A stretch of DNA of 64,000 nucleotides from Thermoleophilia bacterium SCSIO 60948 (lineage in GTDB: Bacteria; Actinomycetota; Thermoleophilia; Solirubrobacterales; 70-9). Location: NCBI GenBank assembly GCA_021496505.1, contig CP053031.1:744001-808000 (forward strand), read 5' to 3'. A program made the translations under genes and the position numbers. Positions 17,415-37,244 of this stretch are shown piece by piece. The notes under the pieces were generated by a model. That model was not told where the DNA came from. It saw only the letters and a program-made list of their open reading frames with translations, and made no database searches. Numbering within the stretch: the stretch's first letter is position 1; each line of letters begins with the position of its first letter.

Positions 17415-18224
17415 GTGTCTGTCGATACTTCCAACACCCTTCCCGGTCCCACGCGGCCCCTGAGTCGTGACGACGAGGCCGCCGCGCTGACGCGGTACTG
17501 CCATACGCGCGATCCACGACTCCGCGAGGAGCTCGTCGCGAGCTACCTGCCGCTGGCCCAGGCCCTGGCCAACCGCTATCGCGGTGGATCCGAGCCCGCC
17601 GAGGACCTGTTCCAGGTCGCGAGCCTCGGGCTCGTCAAGGCGATCGACGGCTACGTCCCGTCACGAGGCCGCTCGTTCAATGCCTACGCGGTGCCGACCA
17701 TCCTCGGCGAGCTGCGGCGACACTTCCGCGACCGCTCGTGGCGGATCCACCTGCCGCGCGGGCTCCAGGAGCTGACCGTGCGGGTCGCGAAGACCTCGCA
17801 AGAGCTGCGCCACGAGCTCGCCCGGGCGCCGACGGTGAGCGAGCTCTGTGAGCGGCTCGACGCATCGCCCGATGACGTCGTCGAGGCACTCGGTGCCGAC
17901 CAGGCGCGCCGGATGATGTCGCTCGACGTGCCGCAGGTCGTCGGCGACGACGAGTCCGCGCCGGTCATCGAGCGGATCGGTTCCGAGGAGCTCGGCTACG
18001 ACGCGGTCGAGTCGCGGCTGGCCGCGGAGGGCACGAACCTCGACGATCGCGAACGCCGGGTCCTCGAGTTGCGATTCGAGAACGGCTTCAACCAGTACGA
18101 GATCGCCGACGTCATCGGCGTTTCCCAGATGCAGATCTCGCGGATCATGCGGAAGGCGCTGAAGAAGCTGCTGCTCTCCGTTCGCGGCGAGGAGCACGAG
18201 GACGTCAGCCTCGTCACGAGCTGA
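17415..18224 (+). CDS. RNA polymerase sigma factor, SigF/SigB (general stress/sporulation) subfamily
   Basis: 269 aa. Region 2: SYLPLAQALANRYRGGSEPA, DLFQVASLGLVKAIDGY. Region 3: ELTVRVAKTSQELRHEL. Region 4: LDDRERRVLELRFENGFNQY followed by a helix-turn-helix (DVIGVSQMQISRIMRKALKK). This is a group 3 sigma factor of the SigB/SigF/SigG type. The GTG start follows GAGAGGAGACGAG. No anti-sigma or anti-anti-sigma gene is adjacent, although a SpoIIE-type phosphatase lies 6.4 kb away. Three sites in this window fit GTTN-N15-GGGTA(A/G), so it may regulate the alcohol dehydrogenase and the gas-vesicle genes. Confidence 0.92.
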   Translation: MSVDTSNTLPGPTRPLSRDDEAAALTRYCHTRDPRLREELVASYLPLAQALANRYRGGSEPAEDLFQVASLGLVKAIDGYVPSRGRSFNAYAVPTILGELRRHFRDRSWRIHLPRGLQELTVRVAKTSQELRHELARAPTVSELCERLDASPDDVVEALGADQARRMMSLDVPQVVGDDESAPVIERIGSEELGYDAVESRLAAEGTNLDDRERRVLELRFENGFNQYEIADVIGVSQMQISRIMRKALKKLLLSVRGEEHEDVSLVTS

Positions 18225-18283: not shown

Positions 18284-18637
18284 CTAGCGAGTCTCGAGTA
18301 CGAAGACCTCGGCGATCATGTCGGGGTTCTGCTGATTGCCGCTCATGAAACCGATCACCTTGCGGCTGGTCTCCTTCTCGATGAGCTCGACGAAGCTCGA
18401 GCGCATCATCTCCTGCCACTGCGCGCGCTGATCGGTCACCGCGTCGCCCCTGCCGGCCAGGCGAAGGTTCTCCTCCGCGCGGGAGAACCCGCCTCGCATC
18501 ACGCAGACGATGAGGTCGTCGTCGTAGTAGGTCTTGGCCTCGGTCGGGCCGATCCCGTACATCTCCTTGTGTAGGGCTACGAGCCCCCGCGAGATGTTGT
18601 TGCGTATCCCTCCCGCGTCGGGCCGGGCTTCCATCAC
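18284..18637 (-). CDS. DUF2294 domain protein
   Basis: About 117 aa from a GTG at 18637 with AAGGAG 8 bases upstream; an ATG at 18634 is next, and a longer TTG form (18691) overlaps a TTGACA sequence. The pattern NNISRGLVALHKEMYGIGPTEAK, then DDDLIVCVMRGGFSRAEENL, then RSSFVELIEKETSRKVIGFM matches DUF2294 proteins, whose function is not established. It ends convergently with the sigma-factor gene. Confidence 0.75.
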   Translation of the reverse strand: MMEARPDAGGIRNNISRGLVALHKEMYGIGPTEAKTYYDDDLIVCVMRGGFSRAEENLRLAGRGDAVTDQRAQWQEMMRSSFVELIEKETSRKVIGFMSGNQQNPDMIAEVFVLETR

Positions 18638-18712
18638 TTCGCGGGCTCCTTCCTCGCCGCCCTCAGGGCTAATTCTCGCCCTCGCTGTCAAACGGCTCCC
18701 GCTCGCCGGATC

Positions 18713-21830: not shown

Positions 21831-22934
21831 CTAGGTCGTCTGCTTGCGATCGGGGGTGTCGCGCGGCTCGAGCTGGATCTCCTTGTCGGCTCGCGGGATC
21901 CCCGCCCGCAGTTCGCGGCTGCGCTCGCGCTCTGCGTTGAGCTCCATGCCGAAGAGGATCGCCAGATTCGAGATCCAGGCCCAGACGAGCACCGTCACGA
22001 TCGCTCCTAGCGAGCCATACGTCTTGTCGTACGACCCGAAGTTCGCGACGTAGAACGCGAACGCGGCCGACGCCAGGATCCAGACCGCGACGGCGAACAT
22101 GCTGCCGGGCGTGATCCACTTGAAGCCCGGCAGCTTCACGTTCGGCGAGGCGTAGTAGAGCACCCCGATCATCAGGATCAGGACGGCCAGCAGGACCGGC
22201 CACTTGGCGATGTCCCAGACGGTCGTGAACGTCGATCCGACACCGATCGCGTTGCCGACGGCGTCGACGACCGGACCGGTCAGGACGAGCGCGATCGCGA
22301 CGAGAGCCAGCAGGAAGATGAGCAGCAGCGTCACGGCGAGCTGAAGCGGGCGGAGCTTGAAGAAGCCGCGGCCCTCGGGCGTCTCCCAGATCACATTCGA
22401 TGCGCGCATGAATGCGCCGATGTAGCCGGACGCCGACCACAGAGCGGTCGCGAGCCCGACGAAGAACAGCACTCCGGCCGCAGAGCGATTCGAGGTGATC
22501 GACTCGATCGGGTCAGCGAACGTATCCGCGGCCGTCGAGGGCCCGATGTCGCTGACGACGTCGGTCAGGGCGCGCGTCGTCGTCTGCGGGTCGCCGAACA
22601 ACCCGAGGATCGATACGAGCGCGATCAGTGCCGGGAACAGCGATAGCAGGCCGTAGTAGGTGAGCGCCGCGGCCCAGTCGGTCATGCCGTCCTCGCCGAA
22701 CTCCTTCGCGGTCCGCTTCAGGGTCGGCCAGGCGCCGGTGCCTGTGTCGGCTCCGGTCGGCGCGTAATCGACCCGCCGCGGCTCGACGTCCTCGCGAACC
22801 TCTTCGCGCTCCTCGGCGCGCTCCTGCGTCTCCGAGTCGTTGCGCTGCTGGGTGGCGACGGCGTCGCGGCGCGCCTCGGAGTCCGCCGTCGCCCCGTTCG
22901 CCTCGTCCTTCTTCTTGCGTGACCAGAAAGCCAT
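21831..22934 (-). CDS. YihY/BrkB-family membrane protein
   Basis: 367 aa. The first 75 residues are highly charged and cytoplasmic. Then come TAKEFGEDGMTDWAAALTYYG and SLFPALIALVSILGLFGD, the hallmark start of YihY/virulence factor BrkB proteins, and about six helices, ending with WISNLAILFGMELNAE. Transport or envelope function is assumed in the family but not proven. It is the last gene of a five-gene membrane operon (starting at 24497), separated from the DUF4235 gene by 42 bases. Confidence 0.88.
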   Translation of the reverse strand: MAFWSRKKKDEANGATADSEARRDAVATQQRNDSETQERAEEREEVREDVEPRRVDYAPTGADTGTGAWPTLKRTAKEFGEDGMTDWAAALTYYGLLSLFPALIALVSILGLFGDPQTTTRALTDVVSDIGPSTAADTFADPIESITSNRSAAGVLFFVGLATALWSASGYIGAFMRASNVIWETPEGRGFFKLRPLQLAVTLLLIFLLALVAIALVLTGPVVDAVGNAIGVGSTFTTVWDIAKWPVLLAVLILMIGVLYYASPNVKLPGFKWITPGSMFAVAVWILASAAFAFYVANFGSYDKTYGSLGAIVTVLVWAWISNLAILFGMELNAERERSRELRAGIPRADKEIQLEPRDTPDRKQTT

Positions 22935-22976
22935 CGTCCCCGTCCTCGCCCTAGTCCTCGACCTCGGAGCCCCGCC

Positions 22977-23255
22977 TCAGCGGGACTCCTGCTCCTGCTC
23001 GCCCGGCCAGCTCCCGGTCGTCCGCTCGAAGCCGATCCGCAGGCCGCGATCGACGAGTCCGCGGGTCAGGCGGAAGATCGCGCCCTCGAGGATGATCGCC
23101 GCCAGCAGCTGCGGCCAGTTCACGTCGCGGTGCTCGACGGACGGCGCCTCCTCGTCGGCGAAGCGGCCCCAGATGAAGCCGAATATCTTCGACGAGATCA
23201 TCCCCGCGAGCAGGCCCGTGAGGATCGAGACCGGCGGGAAGAGGTAGCGACTCAT
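22977..23255 (-). CDS. DUF4235 membrane protein
   Basis: 92 aa. Two hydrophobic segments: SILTGLLAGMISSKIFGFIW and QLLAAIILEGAIFRLTRGLV, the second carrying the family pattern followed by DRGLRIGFERTTGSWPG. DUF4235 proteins are small actinobacterial membrane proteins that usually sit beside DUF3618 and holin-like genes, as here. The ATG overlaps the DUF3618 stop (ATGA). Confidence 0.82.
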   Translation of the reverse strand: MSRYLFPPVSILTGLLAGMISSKIFGFIWGRFADEEAPSVEHRDVNWPQLLAAIILEGAIFRLTRGLVDRGLRIGFERTTGSWPGEQEQESR

Positions 23256-23665
23256 CGACGCCTCCTGCGGCGGGCGATGAGCACGAGAGCGACGAGCGCG
23301 GCGGCACCGATGGCCGCCGTCGCCTGCGGGTTCTGCTTCGCTCGCTCCTGCACCTGCGTGGGCGCCGCCTGCGCCGCCTGCTTCGCGTCCTCGGCCTTGG
23401 CGCGAGCCCGTTGCTTGGTCTCATCGACCTTCTGCTGGGCCTGAGCCTTGACGTCGGCCTTCTCGGCGAGCGCCTCGACGGTCTCGCCGAGCTGCTCGCG
23501 GGTCGCCGCGATCTCCGCCTCGATCTCTTCGGGGCTGCGCTGCGTCTTCCCGCCGTCGTCGTCGTCCGACAGCTCCGAGCTCTTCGACTCGGACGCAGCG
23601 CGCGCTGCGGCGGGCGTCTCGGTCGTCTCGGCGGGGTCGGCGCTCTTCTTCTCGGAACCGCTCAC
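23252..23665 (-). CDS. DUF3618 protein
   Basis: 137 aa. A disordered acidic N-terminus leads to the family core RSPEEIEAEIAATREQLGET followed by VEALAEKADVKAQAQQK, a coiled-coil, and a single C-terminal helix (AIGAAALVALVLIARRRRRR). DUF3618 proteins are thought to be membrane-anchored coiled coils of unknown role. The GTG start overlaps the upstream stop (GTGA). Confidence 0.85.
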   Translation of the reverse strand: MSGSEKKSADPAETTETPAAARAASESKSSELSDDDDGGKTQRSPEEIEAEIAATREQLGETVEALAEKADVKAQAQQKVDETKQRARAKAEDAKQAAQAAPTQVQERAKQNPQATAAIGAAALVALVLIARRRRRR

Positions 23666-24114
23666 GCGCGTCCCTCCTTCGCGCTGGTCTTGATCTTCTG
23701 GACGTCCTGCTGGGCGTTCGCGACGGTGCGCTCGGGGGCCGGCGGCGTCGCCTGCTGGACCTGGTTTCGGCCGGTCAGGGCGAGGACGCCGGCGAGCACC
23801 GCGTATACGGCGAACACGATCAGCGCCGCGATCCAGCCCTCGACTGCGGTCGCGAGCAGCATGATCGCAGCCGCGGTGAAGGCGCCGAAGGCGAACAGCC
23901 CGACGATCCCCGCGGCGCCGAACGCGCCGAGTCCGATGCCGGCTCGCTTGCCCTTCTCGCTCAGCTCCACCTTCGCGAGCTCGACCTCGGCTCTGACGAG
24001 GTTCGAGGTCTGCTCGGAAAGCTGCTTGACGAGATCGCCCATCGCGGCGTCCCGCGCCCGGCCAGAGTTGGCCGGGGCCGAGCTCTCTTCCGTTGCCATC
24101 GTCTTCTCCATCAT
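23662..24114 (-). CDS. Actinobacterial phage-holin-family (DUF1469-like) membrane protein
   Basis: 150 aa. A soluble N-terminal helix (LVKQLSEQTSNLVRAEVELA, KVELSEKGKRAG) precedes two or more membrane helices (GLGAFGAAGIVGLFAFGAFT; EGWIAALIVFAVYAVLAGVL). This is the 'phage holin family / Holin-X / YqjE' pattern. Despite the name it is chromosomal and probably a structural membrane protein here. Start ATG overlaps the preceding gene's stop (ATGA). Confidence 0.8.
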   Translation of the reverse strand: MMEKTMATEESSAPANSGRARDAAMGDLVKQLSEQTSNLVRAEVELAKVELSEKGKRAGIGLGAFGAAGIVGLFAFGAFTAAAIMLLATAVEGWIAALIVFAVYAVLAGVLALTGRNQVQQATPPAPERTVANAQQDVQKIKTSAKEGRA

Positions 24115-24497
24115 TCGTCGCTTGCGATCTCTGCGGCGCGTTCGCGCGCCCGTTCGGGCGAGAGGCCCGGGACCCGATCGAGCAGGTGCTCGATCTCCCC
24201 CGACAGCCGCCCCATCGACTCGTTGAGCGCCCTCGCGGTCTCGTTCAGGGCCCCGATCTCCTCGCGGCTCGTCTCAAGCTCTGCCCGCAACCGACCGGCG
24301 GATTCATCGAGCGAGCGGATCTCGTGGTGGATCGGTCCGAGGCGCGCATCGACCGACCGCAGCGTCTCGCCGACCTCGGCTGGCCCAGGCACGTCCTCGC
24401 CCCCCGGCTCGTCGCGTGGCGCGAGATCCTTGACGGCCCGGCCAACGACTCGCGGCGTGTTCCTGGCCGCGCCCAATATGTCGTTGAAGAACTTCAC
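24111..24497 (-). CDS. Hypothetical coiled-coil protein heading the membrane operon
   Basis: 128 aa, not recognised as a family. Residues 1-25 are amphipathic (KFFNDILGAARNTPRVVGRA). From about residue 40 a heptad-like coiled coil runs to the end (LGPIHHEIRSLDESAGRLRA, EIGALNETARALNESMGRLS). It is the first gene of an operon with holin-like, DUF3618, DUF4235 and YihY genes, all but the last joined by 4-base overlaps, which suggests a shared membrane-associated role. The GTG start lacks a clear ribosome-binding site. Confidence 0.7.
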   Translation of the reverse strand: MKFFNDILGAARNTPRVVGRAVKDLAPRDEPGGEDVPGPAEVGETLRSVDARLGPIHHEIRSLDESAGRLRAELETSREEIGALNETARALNESMGRLSGEIEHLLDRVPGLSPERARERAAEIASDE

Positions 24498-24572
24498 GCT
24501 GCGGGCGCCTACCCGCGTCGGCGTGACGACTCACGGTGGAGACCCAAGTCGAGCCGGTTGTGGCCCTAAATG

Positions 24573-24594
24573 GGACACGAAGTACGCCGTGTCC
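24573..24594. promoter_or_regulatory. Palindromic operator candidate upstream of TetR-SpoIIE fusion
   Basis: GGACACG aa GTAC gc CGTGTCC: 7-bp inverted arms around an inner GTAC palindrome with the same centre. It lies 17 bases upstream of the preferred ATG (24612), the position expected for autoregulation by the TetR-type DNA-binding domain. A related repeat lies at 26049-26084. Confidence 0.6.
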
Positions 24595-24611: not shown

Positions 24612-26000
24612 ATGGGACTCGTGCGCGCCGACACGAAGCGAAATCGACAGCGGATCCTTGACGCCGCGGCACGGTTGCTCAGCCACTCGACGAGCGTCAG
24701 TCAGTCGGAGATCGCCACGGCAGCGGGGGTATCGCGCTCGACCCTCCACCGACACTTCCCCGACCGTCAGGCGCTGATCCGCGAGGTCTCGGCGATCGAG
24801 GCCGCCGCGGCCCCGGCCCCTGCGGCGTCCGCCCCGGAGGCGCCGATCGACCCCGGCAGGCTCGGACGCGATCGGCCCGTGGCGCTCGACGGCATCGATG
24901 TCTTCGACGCGGTTCCTCCCGCGATGCTGGCCGAGCAGCTGATCGCCGAGGCGCAGCGCGTCGCCGAGGTCCCGCTCGGTCTCTACGTCCTCGACATCGA
25001 TGGTTCGCACCTGCTCAAGGCCGCCGGCCCCGACCGCCTGCCCGCGTCGATCAGGGCGCCGCGCGCGATCGGCCCCGAGCTCGACGCAGACGGCCTCGTC
25101 GGCCTGCGTGAGGACCTGAGCGATCTGCCCGGAGCGGAGATCGTCCCACTGTGGCTGCGCGGCAGGGCTATAGGCGTGATCCTGACGCTCGGACGGCCGC
25201 GGCGTTCGCTGACCGAGATCGCTCGACAGGCCGCGGCCGCCGTCACGCTCGCCGAGCAGTACACGGACGTCTTCGCCGCCGCCCAGCGCCGCAAGACGCC
25301 CCGCGCGGCGGCTGAGATACAGCAGAGCCTGTTGCCGCCGCGGATCTCGAGGGTGACGGGCGGTGAGGTCGCAGGCAACGTCCTGCCGAGCTACGAGGTC
25401 GCTGGCGACTGGTTCGACGTCGTCGAGAACCACGATGGCGTCTGGATCAGCCTCGCCGATGGCATCGGCGAGAACACCCGAGCGGCGGCGAGCGGCGCTG
25501 TAGCGCTCGGTGCGCTCCGGGCCAGCCGGCGGTCGGGCGGCACTCCGACCGAAGCGCTGTTGCTGATGCATCACACCCTCAAGGAGATGCCGGGGCCGGG
25601 CGCGGAGATGTCGGCCTTGGTCGCCCGCTGGGACCCCGCGAGCTTCGAGTTGACGGTCGCGAACTGCGGGCACGTCGCGCCGATCGTGTTGCGTAACGGC
25701 GACCCCCAGCGCGCGGGGAAGGGGGGAGGGCGTGGACTCGGCGGTCGGTCGAGTCCGCGTCCGGACGAGCACACGTCGACGCTGGGTCCGGGCGACCGGC
25801 TGGTGCTGTTCTCGGACGGGGTAGTGAAGCCCGGAACGGGCCGGGCGGGGCTCGGGATGGAGGGCGTGGTGAGCGCGGCGCTCACCTCGGAGACCGCGAC
25901 CGCGGCCGACACCGTCCGACGCATACACCACTCCGTCCTCGCCGCGAGCGCGGACGGCCTCGCCGACGATGCGACCGTGGTGTGTCTCGCCGTGCAGTAG
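24612..26000 (+). CDS. TetR-type DNA-binding domain fused to a GAF-like domain and SpoIIE/PP2C phosphatase
   Basis: 462 aa from the ATG at 24612. Residues about 5-60 are a TetR N-terminal domain (RNRQRILDAAARLLSHSTSV, IATAAGVSRSTLHRHFPDRQ). About 85-215 is a GAF-like sensor (LAEQLIAEAQRVAEVPLGLY, VPLWLRGRAIGVILTLGRP). About 230-462 is a SpoIIE-type PP2C phosphatase with metal-binding Asp positions in VAGDWFDVV, ISLADGIG, FSDGV and LADDATVV. SpoIIE-type enzymes dephosphorylate anti-anti-sigma proteins in partner switching. A TetR DNA-binding head on such an enzyme is unusual and could link phosphatase and transcription control. An upstream ATG (24570) would lie in the palindrome and is rejected. 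Confidence 0.85.
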   Translation: MGLVRADTKRNRQRILDAAARLLSHSTSVSQSEIATAAGVSRSTLHRHFPDRQALIREVSAIEAAAAPAPAASAPEAPIDPGRLGRDRPVALDGIDVFDAVPPAMLAEQLIAEAQRVAEVPLGLYVLDIDGSHLLKAAGPDRLPASIRAPRAIGPELDADGLVGLREDLSDLPGAEIVPLWLRGRAIGVILTLGRPRRSLTEIARQAAAAVTLAEQYTDVFAAAQRRKTPRAAAEIQQSLLPPRISRVTGGEVAGNVLPSYEVAGDWFDVVENHDGVWISLADGIGENTRAAASGAVALGALRASRRSGGTPTEALLLMHHTLKEMPGPGAEMSALVARWDPASFELTVANCGHVAPIVLRNGDPQRAGKGGGRGLGGRSSPRPDEHTSTLGPGDRLVLFSDGVVKPGTGRAGLGMEGVVSAALTSETATAADTVRRIHHSVLAASADGLADDATVVCLAVQ

Positions 26001-26048
26001 GTGCGCCAGCGTCGGCCGCTCCGCTCAGGATGCTCGAGCGCGCGCCTC

Positions 26049-26084
26049 AAGTAGGACACGGAATCGGCATCCCGTGTCTCACTT
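26049..26084. promoter_or_regulatory. Second palindrome related to the TetR-SpoIIE operator
   Basis: AAGT-nn-GACACGG-N10-CCGTGTC-nn-ACTT between the fusion gene and the channel gene. It repeats the GGACACG/CGTGTC half-sites of 24573-24594 but with four more bases between them. A separate perfect 10-bp palindrome (CACTTAAGTG, 26080-26089) overlaps its right end. It lies 110 bases before the start of the channel gene. Confidence 0.45.
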
Positions 26085-26193
26085 AAGTGCTTGATCGGTA
26101 CAGGGTCGTTTCATGTCGGGCACCCGGGGCAATCCGCGCCGCGAGGCGGCCAAATCCTGTGCCCGCCCAGACCCCCCGAACTTTGGAGAGACC

Positions 26194-26994
26194 ATGCCCC
26201 TGACCCCCGTGGCTGCGGTCGATTTCGGCGCCAGCTTGCAGACGGCCTTGGACGGCCTTCTGGGCTTCCTGCCGAATCTGCTCGGCTTCCTGGCCATTCT
26301 GATCATCGGCTTCTTCGTCGCCCGCATCGTCAAGGCGGCGGTCGGCAAGCTGCTCGAGAAGGTCGGCCTCGACAGGACCCTGCACCAGAGCGACGCCGGC
26401 AAGTACGTCGAACAGGTGAGTCCAGGCTCGAAGCCGTCGAAGCTCATCGGAAGCGTCGTCTTCTGGTTCATTTTCATTTTCGCGCTGTCGGCGGCTGTCG
26501 GCGCGCTTGAGATCCCGGCCGTCACGACGTTCATGAATCAGGTGCTCGCCTACCTGCCGAACGTGATCGTCGCGGTGCTGATCTTCGTCGCGGCGGCAGC
26601 GATCGCCGGCGGCGTCGCCGCTCTCGTCCACAAGACGATGGGCGACACCCCGACCGGGCGCGTCGTTCGCGCCGCCGTCCCGGTCTTCGTGATGGGGATC
26701 GCGATCTTCATGATCCTCACCCAGCTCCAGATCGCCGAGCAGATCGTCCTGATCACCTATGCGGCGCTCATGGCGACCGCGACGCTCGGCCTCGGCCTGG
26801 CGTTCGGGCTCGGCGGCCGAGGCGTCGCCGCGGACATGCTCAACAACGCCTACGACAAGGGCCGCGATCAGAGCGATCAGGTCCAGCGCGACGTCGAGCG
26901 CGGCCGTGATCGTGCGGAGAGCCGCGTCGAGCAGGAGCGCTCGCAGCGCTCCTCGGGCGGCGGACCGGCGACCGGATCGCTCGGGAGCGCCTGA
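26194..26994 (+). CDS. Mechanosensitive-channel-like (CmpX/TM-helix repeat) membrane protein
   Basis: 266 aa from the ATG at 26194 (GGAGAG just upstream). Four to five helices, two with the conserved-TM-helix repeat pattern: LPNLLGFLAILIIGFFVARI and LPNVIVAVLIFVAAAAIAGG, each followed by a small soluble turn. ATATLGLGLAFGLGGRGVAA resembles the pore-lining glycine/alanine helix of MscS-type channels. The large MscS cytoplasmic beta domain is absent and the C-terminus is a charged, disordered tail. CmpX-type proteins act in envelope stress. It follows the TetR-SpoIIE gene and a shared palindrome. Confidence 0.8.
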   Translation: MPLTPVAAVDFGASLQTALDGLLGFLPNLLGFLAILIIGFFVARIVKAAVGKLLEKVGLDRTLHQSDAGKYVEQVSPGSKPSKLIGSVVFWFIFIFALSAAVGALEIPAVTTFMNQVLAYLPNVIVAVLIFVAAAAIAGGVAALVHKTMGDTPTGRVVRAAVPVFVMGIAIFMILTQLQIAEQIVLITYAALMATATLGLGLAFGLGGRGVAADMLNNAYDKGRDQSDQVQRDVERGRDRAESRVEQERSQRSSGGGPATGSLGSA

Positions 26995-31064: not shown

Positions 31065-31132
31065 CCCGTCGCGGTCGCCGATCGGGGTGACGGGGAGGGT
31101 GACACCCGGTCAGGTGGGTGTTTGCGCCCAGG

Positions 31133-31158
31133 GGTTGTCACGGTCGGAGCTCGGGTAA
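31133..31158 (+). promoter_or_regulatory. SigF/SigB-like promoter of the gas-vesicle cluster
   Basis: GGTTGT-N14-GGGTAA, i.e. GTTG-N15-GGGTAA, lies 43 bases upstream of the first gene of the cluster. It matches the element at 37908-37933 in both boxes and in spacing and fits a SigF/SigB-type consensus. Confidence 0.55.
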
Positions 31159-31201
31159 TTCGAGTGTGACGGAGAGCACATCTATCGGGAGGAGGCCAGG
31201 G

Positions 31202-31573
31202 ATGGCCGCAGGAAGCACAGCGACGCGCAAGCGACCGTCGAACAACGGCAACGGAGCGTCGGCGAGCGCGTCGAAGACCACCAAGGCCGCGGCCAAGAAG
31301 CCGGCGCAGAAGGCCAAGGAGACCACCGAGGCCGCGACCGACGAGAGCGGCGGGGTCGCCGAGAAGCTGAAACTGATCGCGATCGCGGGGAGCTCGGCGG
31401 CGGTCGGTGCCGCGGGCGGCTACGCGGGGGCGTCGATGACCGGGGCCGGATCGGGGTCGCGGTCGACCGTCAAGGTGCCGAAGTTCAAGACCAGCACCTC
31501 GGTGAAGCTGATCGCCGCGGCGGCGAAGATCGGCTACTCGATCGGCCGCAGGCGAGAGAAGCTCGCGAGCTGA
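31202..31573 (+). CDS. Basic Lys/Ala-rich gas-vesicle-associated protein with Gly/Ala hydrophobic segment
   Basis: 123 aa, no family recognised. The first 45 residues are Lys/Ala/Ser-rich (histone-H1-like composition, e.g. TTKAAAKKPAQKAKETTE). The middle is a Gly/Ala-rich hydrophobic helix (KLIAIAGSSAAVGAAGGYAG). The C-terminus has KVPKFKTSTSVKLIAAAAKI followed by GYSIGRRREKL. The same order (basic head, Gly/Ala helix, 'PK.K' linker, amphipathic helix) recurs in the gene at 37991 at the other end of the cluster. GGGAGGAGG precedes the ATG. An upstream in-frame GTG lies before the promoter and is rejected. Confidence 0.7.
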   Translation: MAAGSTATRKRPSNNGNGASASASKTTKAAAKKPAQKAKETTEAATDESGGVAEKLKLIAIAGSSAAVGAAGGYAGASMTGAGSGSRSTVKVPKFKTSTSVKLIAAAAKIGYSIGRRREKLAS

Positions 31574-31613
31574 GCCCGCGTCCACGCCGCAGGAACTCAT
31601 CACGGGAGGCGAG

Positions 31614-32744
31614 ATGAGCGCAAACGGGACGCAGGAGTCCGCGGGGGAGCACGCCCGCGAGGCGGTGACGCAATGGGGCCGGGCGATACGTCTCGGAGCC
31701 ATCGCGATGTCGCCCGCCGTACGCGGGCCGGGCAAGGTCGTCGAGGCAGCCAAGTCCGCGCTGCCCGACGAGCCGCCGGACCTGCCGAAGCCGAAGGCGC
31801 GATCCCTGCTGCGGCCCGGGGTCGCCGACGGGGGCGGCGTCGCCGACGCGGGTCTCTCGAAGCTCGGCGCGAAGGGCAAGGCGGCCGTGGCGCTCCGAAA
31901 GGGGTCTCGGGCCGCGCAGAAGCTCAAGCCCGGCACGAGCGGCGGTCTCATGGACAGGCTCACACCCGACGCCGGAGTGCTCGACAGGCTGACGCCCGAC
32001 GGCGGCGTGTTGGAGAAGCTGACGCCGGACGGGGGCCTGATCGGCGCGCTGCGCACCAACGGCGCCGGTGAAGATCACGCCACGGACTTCGACGACGCCC
32101 CGATCCCGATCCAGGAGTCGATCGTCGTCGCCGTCCCGGTCAACGTGGCCTACGACCTGTGCACTCGCTTCGAGGAGTACCCGGGTTTCGTCTCACACGT
32201 CGAGCGAGCCGAGCGCGAGGCCGGCGACGAGGTGTCCTTCGCGACGCGGATGCGCGGATCGTCGCAGCGGCTCGAGATCGAGATCTACGATCGGATCGAG
32301 AACGAGCGGATCGACTGGCGCAGCACCGGCGGCATCCGGCACTCGGGGGTCATCACCTTCCACGAGCTCGCCCCGCGGCTCACCCACATCGAGCTGTCGG
32401 TCGACTACGAGCCGCACGGTCTGGTGCAGCGGATCTCGCGCTCGACCCACCTCACCGAGCGCATGATCCGAGCGGAGATGCGCCGGTTCAAGGCCTTCGC
32501 GGAGCTCGGCGAGGACGAGGGCGGCGATCCGCCGCCTCTCGCCGAGCTGGAGGCCGACGAGGCCGAGGCGGCCGAGGCGGCATCCGAAGACGCCGAGGCA
32601 GCGGCCGACGACGCCGAAACGGGCGCGGAGTCCGGCGGTGATGATGACGGACCCGACGCGGCACTCGACGAGGACGAGGACGAGTACGACGACGAGGACC
32701 TCGAGGACCCCGAGGCGGACGGGGACGACGAGGCCCTCGAATGA
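31614..32744 (+). CDS. SRPBCC-domain gas-vesicle cluster protein with decapeptide repeats and acidic tail
   Basis: 376 aa. Residues 114-143 hold three tandem 10-residue repeats of the form (D/E)(R/K)LTPD(A/G)G(V/L)(L/I). About 160-300 is an SRPBCC/polyketide-cyclase domain (IVVAVPVNVAYDLCTRFEEY, SGVITFHELAPRLTHIELSV). The last 70 residues are almost entirely Asp/Glu/Ala. SRPBCC proteins occur in actinobacterial gas-vesicle loci, with unknown role, perhaps as assembly factors. GGGAGG precedes the ATG. It is separated by 40 bases from the preceding basic protein and by 127 bases from gvpA. Confidence 0.78.
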   Translation: MSANGTQESAGEHAREAVTQWGRAIRLGAIAMSPAVRGPGKVVEAAKSALPDEPPDLPKPKARSLLRPGVADGGGVADAGLSKLGAKGKAAVALRKGSRAAQKLKPGTSGGLMDRLTPDAGVLDRLTPDGGVLEKLTPDGGLIGALRTNGAGEDHATDFDDAPIPIQESIVVAVPVNVAYDLCTRFEEYPGFVSHVERAEREAGDEVSFATRMRGSSQRLEIEIYDRIENERIDWRSTGGIRHSGVITFHELAPRLTHIELSVDYEPHGLVQRISRSTHLTERMIRAEMRRFKAFAELGEDEGGDPPPLAELEADEAEAAEAASEDAEAAADDAETGAESGGDDDGPDAALDEDEDEYDDEDLEDPEADGDDEALE

Positions 32745-32871
32745 CCGGGGCGCGATGTTGACCTCGGGTTAAGGGCCGCGCCCGATCCGCACGGACCGTT
32801 TGCCGGTTTGGAGCCGGAGCAGTCGGGAGTGAGCCACGCAGTCGGACGTTCGACGAAGCAAGGGAGGCAGG

Positions 32872-33342
32872 ATGGCTACAGGAGTACAGCCGTACCGCGG
32901 GAGCGGCGGAGGCGGCGGCAATTACGTCGCGAGATCGAATTCGAGTGGTCTCTACGACGTCCTCGAGTTGATTCTCGACAAGGGTCTCGTCATCGACGTG
33001 TTCGTACGCGTGTCGCTGGTCGGGATCGAGTTGCTGACGATCGATGCTCGCATCGTGATCGCCAGCGTCGACACCTATCTGCGGTTCGCCGAGGCGGTCA
33101 ACCGGCTCGACCTCAACGCGGGCACCTCGGACAAGAAGGATCTCCCTGGCGTGCTCTCGGGCGCGACGGAGGGTGCCGCGTCGAGCAAGACCAAGGGCGC
33201 GCTGCAGGGTGCGAAGGAGTCGCTCTTCGGCTCCGACGACGACGATGATGATGACGGCGACGCCCGCGAGAAGAGCGGCTCGCGGAGCGGCTCGGGTTCG
33301 CGGTCGTCATCGGGCACGCGTCGCCGCAAGAGCTCGAGCTAG
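32872..33342 (+). CDS. gvpA: Gas vesicle structural protein GvpA with long charged C-terminal tail
   Basis: 156 aa. Residues about 24-85 are the GvpA shell fold: [20 protein letters not shown], then [20 protein letters not shown] followed by [14 protein letters not shown] 16-residue Gly-rich head precedes it. The tail is unusual: seven consecutive Asp at 122-128, then Ser/Gly/Arg/Lys-rich to the end. GvpA monomers form the gas-filled protein shell. AGGGAGG precedes the ATG. This is the protein with the most complete GvpA core here and is taken as the major shell protein; GvpJ and GvpS homologues lie downstream. Confidence 0.9.
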
Positions 33343-33347
33343 CCGGC

Positions 33348-34100
33348 GTGGCGGCCTCGGCCGACAGGCCCCGTTACGTCTACGGGGTGGTCCGCGCTTC
33401 GCGCGCCGACCCCAAGGGCGACGGGATTCGCGAGGAGGAGCTCGAACTGGTCGCCTCCGGCGACGTCGCGGCGCTGGTCAGCGCCGCGACGGAGGAGCCG
33501 CTCGAGGCCGGGCGCGACGAGTTGCTCACCCATGCGCGCGTGCTCGAGAAGGCGCTCGAGGGGGGCGTCGTGCTGCCGATGCAGTTCGGCGTGATCCTCC
33601 CCGACGCCGCCGCGGTCGAGGACGTGCTGCTCGCGCCGCACGAGACCGAGCTGATGGCGCAGCTCGACCAGATGGACGGTCGGGTCGAGCTCAACGTGAA
33701 GGGCATCTACGACGAGGACGCGGTGCTCCGCGACCTGGTCGAGCGCGATCGCGAGATCGCGGGCCTTCGCGAGCGCATCCGCGGAAGCGAGGAGGAGGCG
33801 ACCTACCCCGAGCGGATACGCCTCGGCGAGTTGATCAGCGAGGCGCTCGCGGCCAAGCGCGAGCAGGATGAGCAGACGATCCTCGAGCGCCTCAGCGGCT
33901 ACGCCGCGGCAACCGAGGTGAACCCGACGCTGCACGAGCGAATGGTCTGCAACATCTCGTTCCTGGTCGCCGAGGAAGAGGTCGATCCGTTCAACGAAGC
34001 ACTCGACGAGCTCGGCTCCGCCTACGGTGGTGACGTGCGGTTCAAGTACACGGGGCCGCTGCCCCCGCACAGCTTCGTCGAGCTGACATTGGACGCCTGA
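33348..34100 (+). CDS. gvpF: Gas vesicle protein GvpF/GvpL (first of three)
   Basis: 250 aa. RYVYGVVRASRADPKGDGIR opens the N-terminal domain; VLPMQFGVILPDAAAVEDVL, NVKGIYDEDAVLRDLVERD and the C-terminal KYTGPLPPHSFVELTLDA are the GvpF/L signatures. GvpF is a minor protein implicated in nucleation and shell assembly at the gas-facing surface. The GTG lies five bases after the gvpA stop; its own stop overlaps gvpG by one base. Confidence 0.9.
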   Translation: MAASADRPRYVYGVVRASRADPKGDGIREEELELVASGDVAALVSAATEEPLEAGRDELLTHARVLEKALEGGVVLPMQFGVILPDAAAVEDVLLAPHETELMAQLDQMDGRVELNVKGIYDEDAVLRDLVERDREIAGLRERIRGSEEEATYPERIRLGELISEALAAKREQDEQTILERLSGYAAATEVNPTLHERMVCNISFLVAEEEVDPFNEALDELGSAYGGDVRFKYTGPLPPHSFVELTLDA

Positions 34101-34396
34101 TGGGACTGTTCAAGGAACTGGTGCTGCTGCCGCTCGCGCCCGTGCGCGGAACCGCCTGGGTCACGGAGCAACTCGTCGACGAGGCGGATCGCCGGCTCTA
34201 CGACGAGGACAACATCAAGCGCGAGATGATCCAGCTCGAGATCGATCACGACGACGGAAAGATCGGCGACGAGGAGCGCGCCGCGATCGAGGCCGATCTG
34301 ATGGATCGCCTCGCCGTCGCCAGGGAGCGCCAGGCCGAGGAGCGCGAGCTCGGGGTCGAGCCGCAGGCGCCGAGAGAGGAGCGACCGGATGGCTGA
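34100..34396 (+). CDS. gvpG: Gas vesicle protein GvpG
   Basis: 98 aa. The start MGLFKELVLLPLAPVRGTAW followed by VTEQLVDEADRRLYD and a helical charged tail is the GvpG pattern. GvpG is a small assembly protein. It is coupled to gvpF (TGATG) and overlaps gvpO by 8 bases. Confidence 0.92.
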   Translation: MGLFKELVLLPLAPVRGTAWVTEQLVDEADRRLYDEDNIKREMIQLEIDHDDGKIGDEERAAIEADLMDRLAVARERQAEERELGVEPQAPREERPDG

Positions 34397-34727
34397 GAGC
34401 AAGAACTCGCAGAGTTCGGGCAAGGGATCGTCGGGTGGATCGGGCTCCGGAGGCTCGAACAACCAGAAGCGCAAGCCGCTTCGCGAGCTCGTCGAGGAAG
34501 CCCGCGATCAGGTCGGCGAGCTCCTGGGCCGTCCGATCGAATCCGTGCTCGGGATCGAACGCGGGGAGGATGGCTGGCAGGTGACCCTCGAGGTCCTCGA
34601 GCTGTCGCGGGTGCCGAGCACCACTGACGTGCTGGGCAAGTACCTGGTCGAGCTCGACGACGACGGTGAAGTCGTGGGCATGAACCGCCTCCGCCGCTAC
34701 AACCGCGCCGAAGCCGGGGAGGACTGA
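34389..34727 (+). CDS. gvpO: Gas vesicle protein GvpO
   Basis: 112 aa. A Ser/Gly/Lys-rich head of about 28 residues is followed by the GvpO domain: PLRELVEEARDQVGELLGRP, WQVTLEVLELSRVPSTTDVL, YLVELDDDGEVVGMNRLRRY. GvpO is required for gas vesicle formation in haloarchaea and occurs in actinobacterial clusters. Confidence 0.92.
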   Translation: MAESKNSQSSGKGSSGGSGSGGSNNQKRKPLRELVEEARDQVGELLGRPIESVLGIERGEDGWQVTLEVLELSRVPSTTDVLGKYLVELDDDGEVVGMNRLRRYNRAEAGED

Positions 34728-34732
34728 GGCCG

Positions 34733-35185
34733 ATGACGGCGGAGCCAGAACCCGAGCGCGCGCCCGAGCGCGCACTCACCAATCGGCGCCAGGTCGACCC
34801 TCGGCGCGTCGCGGCCCAGCCGGCCTCCGGTGGCCCGGCGAACCTCGCCGACATCCTCGAGCGCGTGCTCGACAAGGGGATCGTGATCGCCGGCGACATC
34901 CAGGTCAACCTGCTCGACATCGAGCTGCTGACGATCAAGATCAGGCTGCTCGTCGCCTCCGTGGAGCGCGCCCAGGAGATGGGGATCAACTGGTGGGAGA
35001 ACGACCCGACGCTGACGCGCGGGTCGGGCAGCACCTCATCGGCCGAAACCGCGGCTCTGGAGCAGGAGAACCGTGAGCTGCGCGCTCGCCTCGACCGGCT
35101 CGAGCGCGCCGTCGCCGGAGCGCTGCCTCCCGAGGGGGACGATCTCGCCGAAAGGGTCGTCCGGACGGACACCGAGGCGGGGTAG
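34733..35185 (+). CDS. gvpJ: GvpA/GvpJ-family gas vesicle protein with C-terminal coiled coil
   Basis: 150 aa. The GvpA-like core spans about residues 37-90 (NLADILERVLDKGIVIAGDI, LLDIELLTIKIRLLVASVER). A 35-residue charged head and a C-terminal coiled coil (ETAALEQENRELRARLDRLE) surround it. GvpJ-type proteins are minor shell parts thought to form the conical tips. It is five bases after gvpO. Confidence 0.87.
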   Translation: MTAEPEPERAPERALTNRRQVDPRRVAAQPASGGPANLADILERVLDKGIVIAGDIQVNLLDIELLTIKIRLLVASVERAQEMGINWWENDPTLTRGSGSTSSAETAALEQENRELRARLDRLERAVAGALPPEGDDLAERVVRTDTEAG

Positions 35186-35188
35186 GCA

Positions 35189-36355
35189 GTGCCGGGAAGC
35201 GACCCGAGCTTCGACGCCCTCCGCGAGGCGATCGCCGCGCTGGCCGATCGACACGCCGGCGAGCTGGTGGAGGAGGCTGAGGCGCAGGCGCGCGAGCGCG
35301 TACGCGCGAGTCTCACCGATGCGATCGCCGACGCGCTGTTCGAGCGCTCCGCCGCGGAGCTGGCCGCGCGCCACATCGACGTCGCCGCGTCCGGGCGGTC
35401 CGCCGCAGGGCCGGCCCACCGATCGCCGCCCGAGACCGCCGGAGATCGCCGGCCGGCCGAGCGCGCCGCGCCGGCTCGGCACGAGGGTGCCCTCCAAGAA
35501 GAGCCGGCGGCGCCGGCCCCGGGAGATCCCGCCGCCGCGACGGGCGGCGGTGAGGCGACATACGTCTTCGGCATCGCCGAGGCCACCGATCGGCTCGGTG
35601 ACCTCCCGGGATTCGAACCGCACCGCGGAGTTCGGCCGATCGCGCTCGGGTCGCTCTCGGCGATCGTCACGACTGTCGATCTGGCCGAATTCGGGGAGCA
35701 GGCGCTGCAGCAAAACCTCGAGGACCTCGAGTGGATCGAGCGCACGGCGCGGACCCACGAGACCGTCCTCGGCGCCCTGGCTCAGCAAACCGCCGTGGTG
35801 CCGATGCGCCTCTGCACGATCTACCGCGACGACGGACAGGTGGCGACGATGCTCACTGAGCGCGGCGAGGAGTTCGCGGCGACCCTGGGGCGGCTTCGTG
35901 GTCGCACCGAGTGGGGCGTCAAGCTGATCGCGGAGCCCGGCGCCCTGGAGGAGATCGCGCGCGGGCGCGGAGGTGGGGAGGAGTCGGCCGAGGCCGGACT
36001 CTCCCCGGGCCTCGCGTACCTCGACCGCAAGCAGCGCGAGCAGCGGGCACGCGGGGACGTAGAGACGACCGCCGCGGAGATTGCGGGCGACGCGCACGCG
36101 CGGCTTGCCGCGACGAGTGCGGCCGCGCGGCTGAACAAGCTCCAGGCCCGCGAGCTCGGCGGGCACAGCGGCGACATGATCCTGAACGGTGCCTACCTCG
36201 TCGACGACGGGGACTTCGACCGCTTCGAGGGCGCACTCGAAGCGCTTCGCGACGAGCTGGGGACCGACGCGATCGCCGCCGAGCTGACGGGCCCGTGGCC
36301 CGCCTACAACTTCGCCAGCGCTGAGGACGACGAGGTCCTGAGGGTCGCCGGATGA
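35189..36355 (+). CDS. gvpL: Gas vesicle protein GvpF/GvpL with extra N-terminal domain (second of three)
   Basis: 388 aa, about 120-140 residues longer than usual. Residues 1-65 are a helical, Ala/Glu-rich segment (ALREAIAALADRHAGELVEE); 65-115 are Pro/Ala-rich linker; from about 120 the GvpF/L domain starts (TYVFGIAEATDRLGDLPGFE, AVVPMRLCTIYRDDGQVATM, LNGAYLVDDGDFDRFEGALE, GPWPAYNFAS). The extension is not recognised. GTG start four bases after gvpJ; ends in an ATGA overlap with gvpS. Confidence 0.88.
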   Translation: MPGSDPSFDALREAIAALADRHAGELVEEAEAQARERVRASLTDAIADALFERSAAELAARHIDVAASGRSAAGPAHRSPPETAGDRRPAERAAPARHEGALQEEPAAPAPGDPAAATGGGEATYVFGIAEATDRLGDLPGFEPHRGVRPIALGSLSAIVTTVDLAEFGEQALQQNLEDLEWIERTARTHETVLGALAQQTAVVPMRLCTIYRDDGQVATMLTERGEEFAATLGRLRGRTEWGVKLIAEPGALEEIARGRGGGEESAEAGLSPGLAYLDRKQREQRARGDVETTAAEIAGDAHARLAATSAAARLNKLQARELGGHSGDMILNGAYLVDDGDFDRFEGALEALRDELGTDAIAAELTGPWPAYNFASAEDDEVLRVAG

Positions 36356-36570
36356 GCTCGGCACGGACGATGCACAGCGCGGAGATGCGGGAGGCGACGC
36401 TGCTCGACCTGCTCGACCGGCTGCTCGCCGGGGGGGTCGTGATCCACGGCGACATCACGCTGGCGGTCGCCGACGTCGACCTCGTCCACGTAGGTCTTCG
36501 CGCCGTCGTCGCAGCGGTCGAGTCGCTCGAGCCGGTCTCGGATCCGGTGCCACCGGAGCTGGAGAGCTGA
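36352..36570 (+). CDS. gvpS: Short GvpA/GvpS-family gas vesicle protein
   Basis: 72 aa. Residues 16-62 have the GvpA-like beta-strand/helix pattern: LLDLLDRLLAGGVVIHGDIT, then VADVDLVHVGLRAVVAAVES. The core is intact with no long tail. GvpS-type minor proteins follow gvpL in Streptomyces clusters, which supports the name. Coupled on both sides (ATGA before, TGATG after). Confidence 0.85.
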   Translation: MSSARTMHSAEMREATLLDLLDRLLAGGVVIHGDITLAVADVDLVHVGLRAVVAAVESLEPVSDPVPPELES

Positions 36571-37244
36571 TGCTCTACCTCTACGCGATCGCCGCAGCCG
36601 GGTTCACGGCGACGGGCGTCCGCGGACTCGCGGGCGCGCCGGTGGAGAGCTTCGAGGGCTCCGGCCTCGCGGTCCTCGCCACGCGTCATGAGGGCCTCGA
36701 CGTACGGCCCACCGAGACCTTCGTGTGGGCGCACCAGGACGTCGTCGAGCGCCTGGCCGAACGCGGCGACGTGCTGCCGCTGCGTATCGCGACCACGCTC
36801 GACGACGGCGACTCCGCGCGTGCGCTGCTGAGCGGTCGCAGGGCCGAGTTCAGCCGCTCGCTCGACCGGATCCGGGGCGCGGTCGAATTCGGGGTGCGGG
36901 CGATCGGCGAGGAGCCCGCCGAGGTGCCCGTCGACGATCGCGCGGCGTCCTCCGGCGGGCCCGGAACCGCTTACATGCTCGATCGGCTCGCTCGCCGGCG
37001 CGGGCGCGACGCGCTTCGCCGTGAGGTGCTCGAACCGCTGCGTCCCTACGCGCGCGACGCGACGGTGCGACCGGACCGTGCCGCCGGCACGGCGCTCTCG
37101 GTCGCCTACCTGGTCGACCGCGACGCGGCCTCGGATTTTCAGCTGCGCGTCGCCGAGCTCGACGATCGGCTTGCCGCGACCCGGCTGCTCTGCACAGGCC
37201 CCTGGCCTCCGTACAGCTTCGTAGACCCGAAGGGGTCTTCGTGA
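36570..37244 (+). CDS. Gas vesicle protein GvpF/GvpL (third of three)
   Basis: 224 aa. MLYLYAIAAAGFTATGVRGL, then VLPLRIATTLDDGDSARALL, then GTALSVAYLVDRDAASDFQL and GPWPPYSFVDPK are GvpF/L landmarks. It is the most divergent and shortest of the three in this cluster. Its stop overlaps gvpK (GTGA). Which of the three is functionally F or L cannot be decided from sequence. Confidence 0.88.
   Translation: MLYLYAIAAAGFTATGVRGLAGAPVESFEGSGLAVLATRHEGLDVRPTETFVWAHQDVVERLAERGDVLPLRIATTLDDGDSARALLSGRRAEFSRSLDRIRGAVEFGVRAIGEEPAEVPVDDRAASSGGPGTAYMLDRLARRRGRDALRREVLEPLRPYARDATVRPDRAAGTALSVAYLVDRDAASDFQLRVAELDDRLAATRLLCTGPWPPYSFVDPKGSS

Follow-up and report, generated by a model that had tools for sequence, protein, structure and literature searches.

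SpoIIE-type phosphatases are known as signalling enzymes of the cytosol or membrane whose N-terminal sensors can be exchanged, and an enzyme of this type normally turns on stress responses. In this study, we analysed a gene in a 64-kb stretch of DNA (the window) whose product resembles the RsbU/RsbP/Rv1364c-type SpoIIE (PPM) phosphatases, in which a GAF or other sensor is linked to a PP2C domain that has conserved metal ligands. Unlike them, it has a TetR head and a conserved operator, and anti-sigma genes are not nearby. It is like TetR/AcrR regulators in that its TetR_N helix-turn-helix (HTH) has a canonical recognition helix, inverted half-sites are conserved close to its gene, and that gene is frequently divergent from its neighbours, but in the short form represented here GAF-PP2C replaces the C-terminal helical ligand domain. 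Bacillus CodY also combines a GAF-fold sensor and a DNA-binding domain in one protein; it differs in that its winged HTH lies at the opposite end and there is no phosphatase. The GAF-SpoIIE proteins of Streptomyces and Nocardiopsis (L011-L015) share a homologous GAF-PP2C core (24-27% identical) without the TetR head. Neither half is new. For their fusion, we found no published description of a TetR protein joined to SpoIIE/PP2C in open-licence full texts, an absence that counts as weak evidence.

The positions of the gene, its predicted domains and the surrounding features are listed in Table 1. An alternative ATG at 24570 would give a protein of 476 aa, and the start at 24612 is more likely because the predicted operator overlaps the first ATG. 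The preliminary description had proposed, from the letters alone, a TetR head, a GAF-like sensor and a PP2C/SpoIIE phosphatase with its metal-binding aspartates, and all three domains were recovered. The TetR_N match scored 38.7 bits against a Pfam cut-off of 24, with AGVSRSTLHRHF as its recognition helix, and a structure prediction of the N-terminus, suggested earlier as a check, returned an HTH of four helices (residues 2-65, pLDDT ~90 in the full-length AlphaFold model). The helical TetR C-terminal ligand/dimerisation domain is absent. Since a disordered linker (residues 68-96, AF2 pLDDT <50) and GAF-PP2C follow the HTH instead, we do not class the protein as a standard TetR regulator.

Table 1. 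Features of the locus, in window coordinates.
Feature	Coordinates	Strand	Basis or remark
SigB/SigF-type sigma factor	17415..18224	+	TIGR02980 E=2e-68
Divergent five-gene block: hypothetical, Phage_holin_3_6, DUF3618, DUF4235, YihY/BrkB	21831..24497	-	
Predicted operator, own/divergent promoter: CTAAATGGGACACGAAGTACGCCGTGTCC	24566..24594	.	top PWM match of 64-kb window, 17.4 bits
TetR_N - linker - GAF-like - SpoIIE/PP2C protein	24612..26000	+	462 aa, open reading frame
TetR_N helix-turn-helix, residues 15-59	24654..24788	+	Pfam PF00440 E 8e-10
Flexible Ala/Pro-rich linker, HTH to GAF, residues ~66-96	24807..24899	+	AF2 pLDDT
GAF-fold sensor domain (modelled), residues ~97-213	24900..25250	+	domain model + fold searches
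SpoIIE/PP2C phosphatase domain, residues 232-462	25305..25997	+	PF07228 E 4e-27
Second predicted operator, before downstream gene: AAGTAGGACACGGAATCGGCATCCCGTGTCTCACTT	26047..26086	.	PWM 17.0 + 10.9 bits
Mechanosensitive-channel TM-helix protein (MS_channel_1st_1), downstream	26113..26994	+	

The middle region of the window protein had no Pfam match, and Pfam GAF was reached in 2/46 homologues. Folded alone (pLDDT 78, pTM 0.75), this region matched the GAF domains of Acinetobacter PtsP (3ci6) and DevS (2vjw) in Foldseek and the CodY GAF domain in VIA (Z ~10.8, 3.0 Å over 115 residues). Judged by these models, the middle domain has a GAF fold. The SpoIIE domain scored 95.9 bits against a cut-off of 25, and the RsbU domain of Rv1364c (3ke6) was its best PDB match (Z 26.0, 2.5 Å, 218 residues). 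All metal-binding aspartate positions (D266, D269, D283, D402, D452/453) are present, and they are kept in 42-46 of 46 homologues. The stretch before the PP2C domain (residues 215-230), where an RsbU-like phosphatase would be expected to have an alpha-helical linker, was modelled at pLDDT <50 in the AF2 monomer.

We found a full-length paralogue in the same genome (69%), homologues of 60-66% in four Thermoleophilia MAGs, and a 61% homologue on a plasmid of Miltoncostaea oceani; the last of these is annotated simply as a SpoIIE family phosphatase. In M. oceani (L006 = NZ_CP064357; L101), one copy sits on a megaplasmid, whose record agrees with the C2 coordinates of genome G480, and a second is apparently chromosomal. 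Of 399 genomes covered by a class-wide profile search, 52 contained the family, and 46 full-length members from Thermoleophilia genomes were taken as the homologue set. TetR_N and SpoIIE were both found by Pfam in 46/46, a share that follows by construction, since members were picked because the family profile matched from its first positions. The informative point is that, by sequence score, the heads stay canonical and are recognised as TetR_N in every one. Homologues whose N-terminus lacks a DNA-binding fold had been named as the observation that would count against the idea, and the opposite was found. Residues R5, D7, A35, R42, R47, F49 and R52 are invariant in all 46, and R42 and R47 lie in the recognition region.

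These headed members come from several families within Thermoleophilia. Across 396 genomes sampled from the phylum, the TetR head was confined to this class; elsewhere the match begins after the head. In a tree of the GAF-PP2C part, the TetR-headed members formed one group (support 91/75) that excluded headless relatives and outgroups. Four longer members (L160-L163) carry TetR_N, an extra stretch, PAS, GAF and SpoIIE. They also depart from TetR/AcrR regulators, keeping a helical-looking stretch after the HTH, followed by PAS-GAF-SpoIIE; the TetR C-terminal domain may be retained there. A candidate second TetR-SpoIIE fusion in Streptomyces hilarionis (L016) was rejected, being two separate ORFs in one locus.

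To define the candidate operator, an EM motif search was run on the sequence upstream of the 46 genes with coding sequence excluded; a first EM motif had been rejected as dominated by the coding sequence of a conserved RRADA stretch. The search gave a half-site consensus AAnTGRGACA (longer form CGAAnTGRGACA), mostly paired. Its palindromic form scored 86.9 versus at most 39 in dinucleotide shuffles, and the half-site 139 versus at most 58. At a PWM threshold of over 9 bits, the 250-bp stretches preceding the start contained 72 matches (6.26/kb), compared with ~0.25/kb elsewhere. A match lay within 300 bp in 41/46 loci versus 90/1733 (5%) random 300-bp chunks, a count that is not independent because the PWM was trained on those upstream regions, for which the shuffles control. 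No PWM site was found upstream of relatives without the TetR head (0/6); the site tracks the head (Fisher p=0.014 when counted more simply), with a small headless control.

The two best PWM matches in the 64-kb window, at 24566 and 26075, flank the gene, and the latter falls outside the PWM-trained region. The upstream element consists of a half-site (24566-24577) and an exact palindrome (24573-24594) that occurs as a single exact copy in the genome. A 36-bp version of the second operator recurs in a relative (L010) between the TetR-SpoIIE gene and the YihY operon, with no other copy of the pattern in the window's genome. Strict AANTGRGACA has nine copies in the 3.4-Mb genome, two of which flank the window gene; most of the other seven apparently lie in coding sequence, with ORFs judged by codon-position GC only. 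A strong half-site at C1:811719 (L057:5718) was discounted as coding sequence, since it falls within the opening codons of a sigma-70 gene. Used as a regulon marker, the exact N8 palindrome gave one genome copy, its 2-mismatch matches resembling background. A 17-bp N3 palindrome pattern, allowing at most 1 mismatch, yielded 3 sites across 8 genomes. Half-site spacing varies (gaps of 3, 12 and 15-16, plus direct repeats), a pattern not typical of a rigid TetR dimer; the flexible linker would allow such variation. The paralogue in the same genome (L053) has a best site of ~10 bits directly upstream and one of 16 bits at 1.5 kb. Conserved and specific as these sites are at the sequence level, they make DNA binding likely.

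The usual neighbours of the family are envelope or osmotic-stress genes, found within 7 kb in 26/46 loci and mostly on the divergent side. This count includes YihY/BrkB, DUF3618, Phage_holin_3_6, the mechanosensitive-channel homologue or an adjoining membrane gene. The five-gene block divergent from the window gene is a conserved neighbour in several relatives, and homologues of the downstream MS_channel_1st_1 protein adjoin the gene in 9/46 loci, the window locus included. YihY was present within 7 kb in 15/46 loci, though the genomes carry only 2-7 copies.

The preliminary description also pointed to a SigF/SigB-type sigma gene 6.4 kb away. The gene is present (230.2 bits, just under the TIGR02980 cut-off of 234.35), but this neighbour is not conserved: any SigB-type match lay within 7 kb in only 7/46 loci, and we rejected it as the conserved partner. 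No anti-sigma gene stands beside it; an MpsC-type protein (PF10057, E 3e-13) at 18284-18691 on the minus strand adjoins it. Among the closest relatives, two (L102 and L107) have a SigB/F-family gene directly downstream in the same direction, scoring 243.4 and 232.4 bits against the same TIGR02980 cut-off. Several TGTCCCA-type half-sites, some below the 9-bit PWM threshold, occur between the two genes. From gene order, this arrangement may revive the sigma-switching idea by a different route. Possible substrates in the window genome come from two STAS-RsbW pairs, one of which has a DSTG phosphosite context; one pair lies 43 kb past the window gene, beside another SpoIIE gene. Around L057:5662-10427 (C1 ~811.7-816.4 kb), a sigma-70 family gene, STAS, GAF/PAS-SpoIIE and RsbW occur together.

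Taken together, these data suggest that the protein is probably a bifunctional sensor-regulator, with a TetR head at operators and a GAF-controlled SpoIIE/PP2C domain that frees a SigB/F-type sigma factor. The head would bind AAnTGRGACA half-sites in its own promoter and in adjacent stress-gene promoters and would therefore control its own and its neighbours' transcription. The GAF domain would take a signal and relay it to the SpoIIE/PP2C domain via a linker that is helical. RsbU-type phosphatases are activated or controlled through N-terminal linkers (PMC12143880), so the GAF signal could reach PP2C likewise. The phosphatase would dephosphorylate a STAS anti-anti-sigma protein, and a SigB/F-type sigma factor would therefore be freed. 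More tentatively, promoter occupancy may be coupled to partner switching in the one polypeptide, the head sitting at its own, stress-gene and, in close relatives, SigB/F sigma operators, the phosphatase freeing that same sigma factor, and DNA binding and catalysis possibly controlling each other.

Several observations weigh against the bifunctional reading. No anti-sigma gene lies near the 46 loci (RsbW within 7 kb in 0/46) and STAS genes are within 7 kb in only 2/46. In addition, the operator may be that of a different regulator, the spacing of the half-sites varies, the TetR C-terminal dimerisation domain is missing from the short form, and the paralogue has no strong site directly upstream. 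The scarcity of RsbW and STAS genes, together with the conserved operator and adjacent stress genes, would also suit a protein that is mainly a local transcription regulator, in which GAF-PP2C replaces the TetR ligand/dimerisation domain and the phosphatase has a target other than an anti-anti-sigma protein or only tunes DNA binding. We regard this as unlikely, given that the metal-binding aspartates are nearly invariant, the PP2C fold is closest to RsbU-type enzymes, and a SigB/F gene is directly downstream in two close relatives.

The varied spacing could instead mean that the head is an adaptor that binds a protein, or DNA without specificity, and that another regulator binds the upstream element and controls the gene; HTH folds can indeed be repurposed. 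That the element tracks the head (41/46 headed loci versus 0/6 headless relatives) and that conservation within the head falls on the recognition-helix residues make this improbable. That the protein is an ordinary GAF-SpoIIE phosphatase, its N-terminal fusion being accidental or arising at the level of annotation, would be in keeping with the headless GAF-SpoIIE proteins common in Actinomycetota, but it is very hard to credit with the head in all 46 aligned members, several families and one tree group; we take a chance fusion as already refuted because the head is conserved.

On the bifunctional reading, one molecule may both occupy promoters and set a stress transcription factor free. If true, transcriptional and post-translational stress control would be fused in it, and a class-wide family bearing a DNA-binding head and a conserved operator of its own would extend partner switching by a self-regulating branch that binds DNA. 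The finding also offers a specific operator and regulon to test in the poorly studied Thermoleophilia.

Further along the window, at 31118-37244 on the plus strand, we observed several ORFs resembling a gas-vesicle cluster, with GvpA-like short proteins and GvpF/L-like proteins, judged by eye from the translations.
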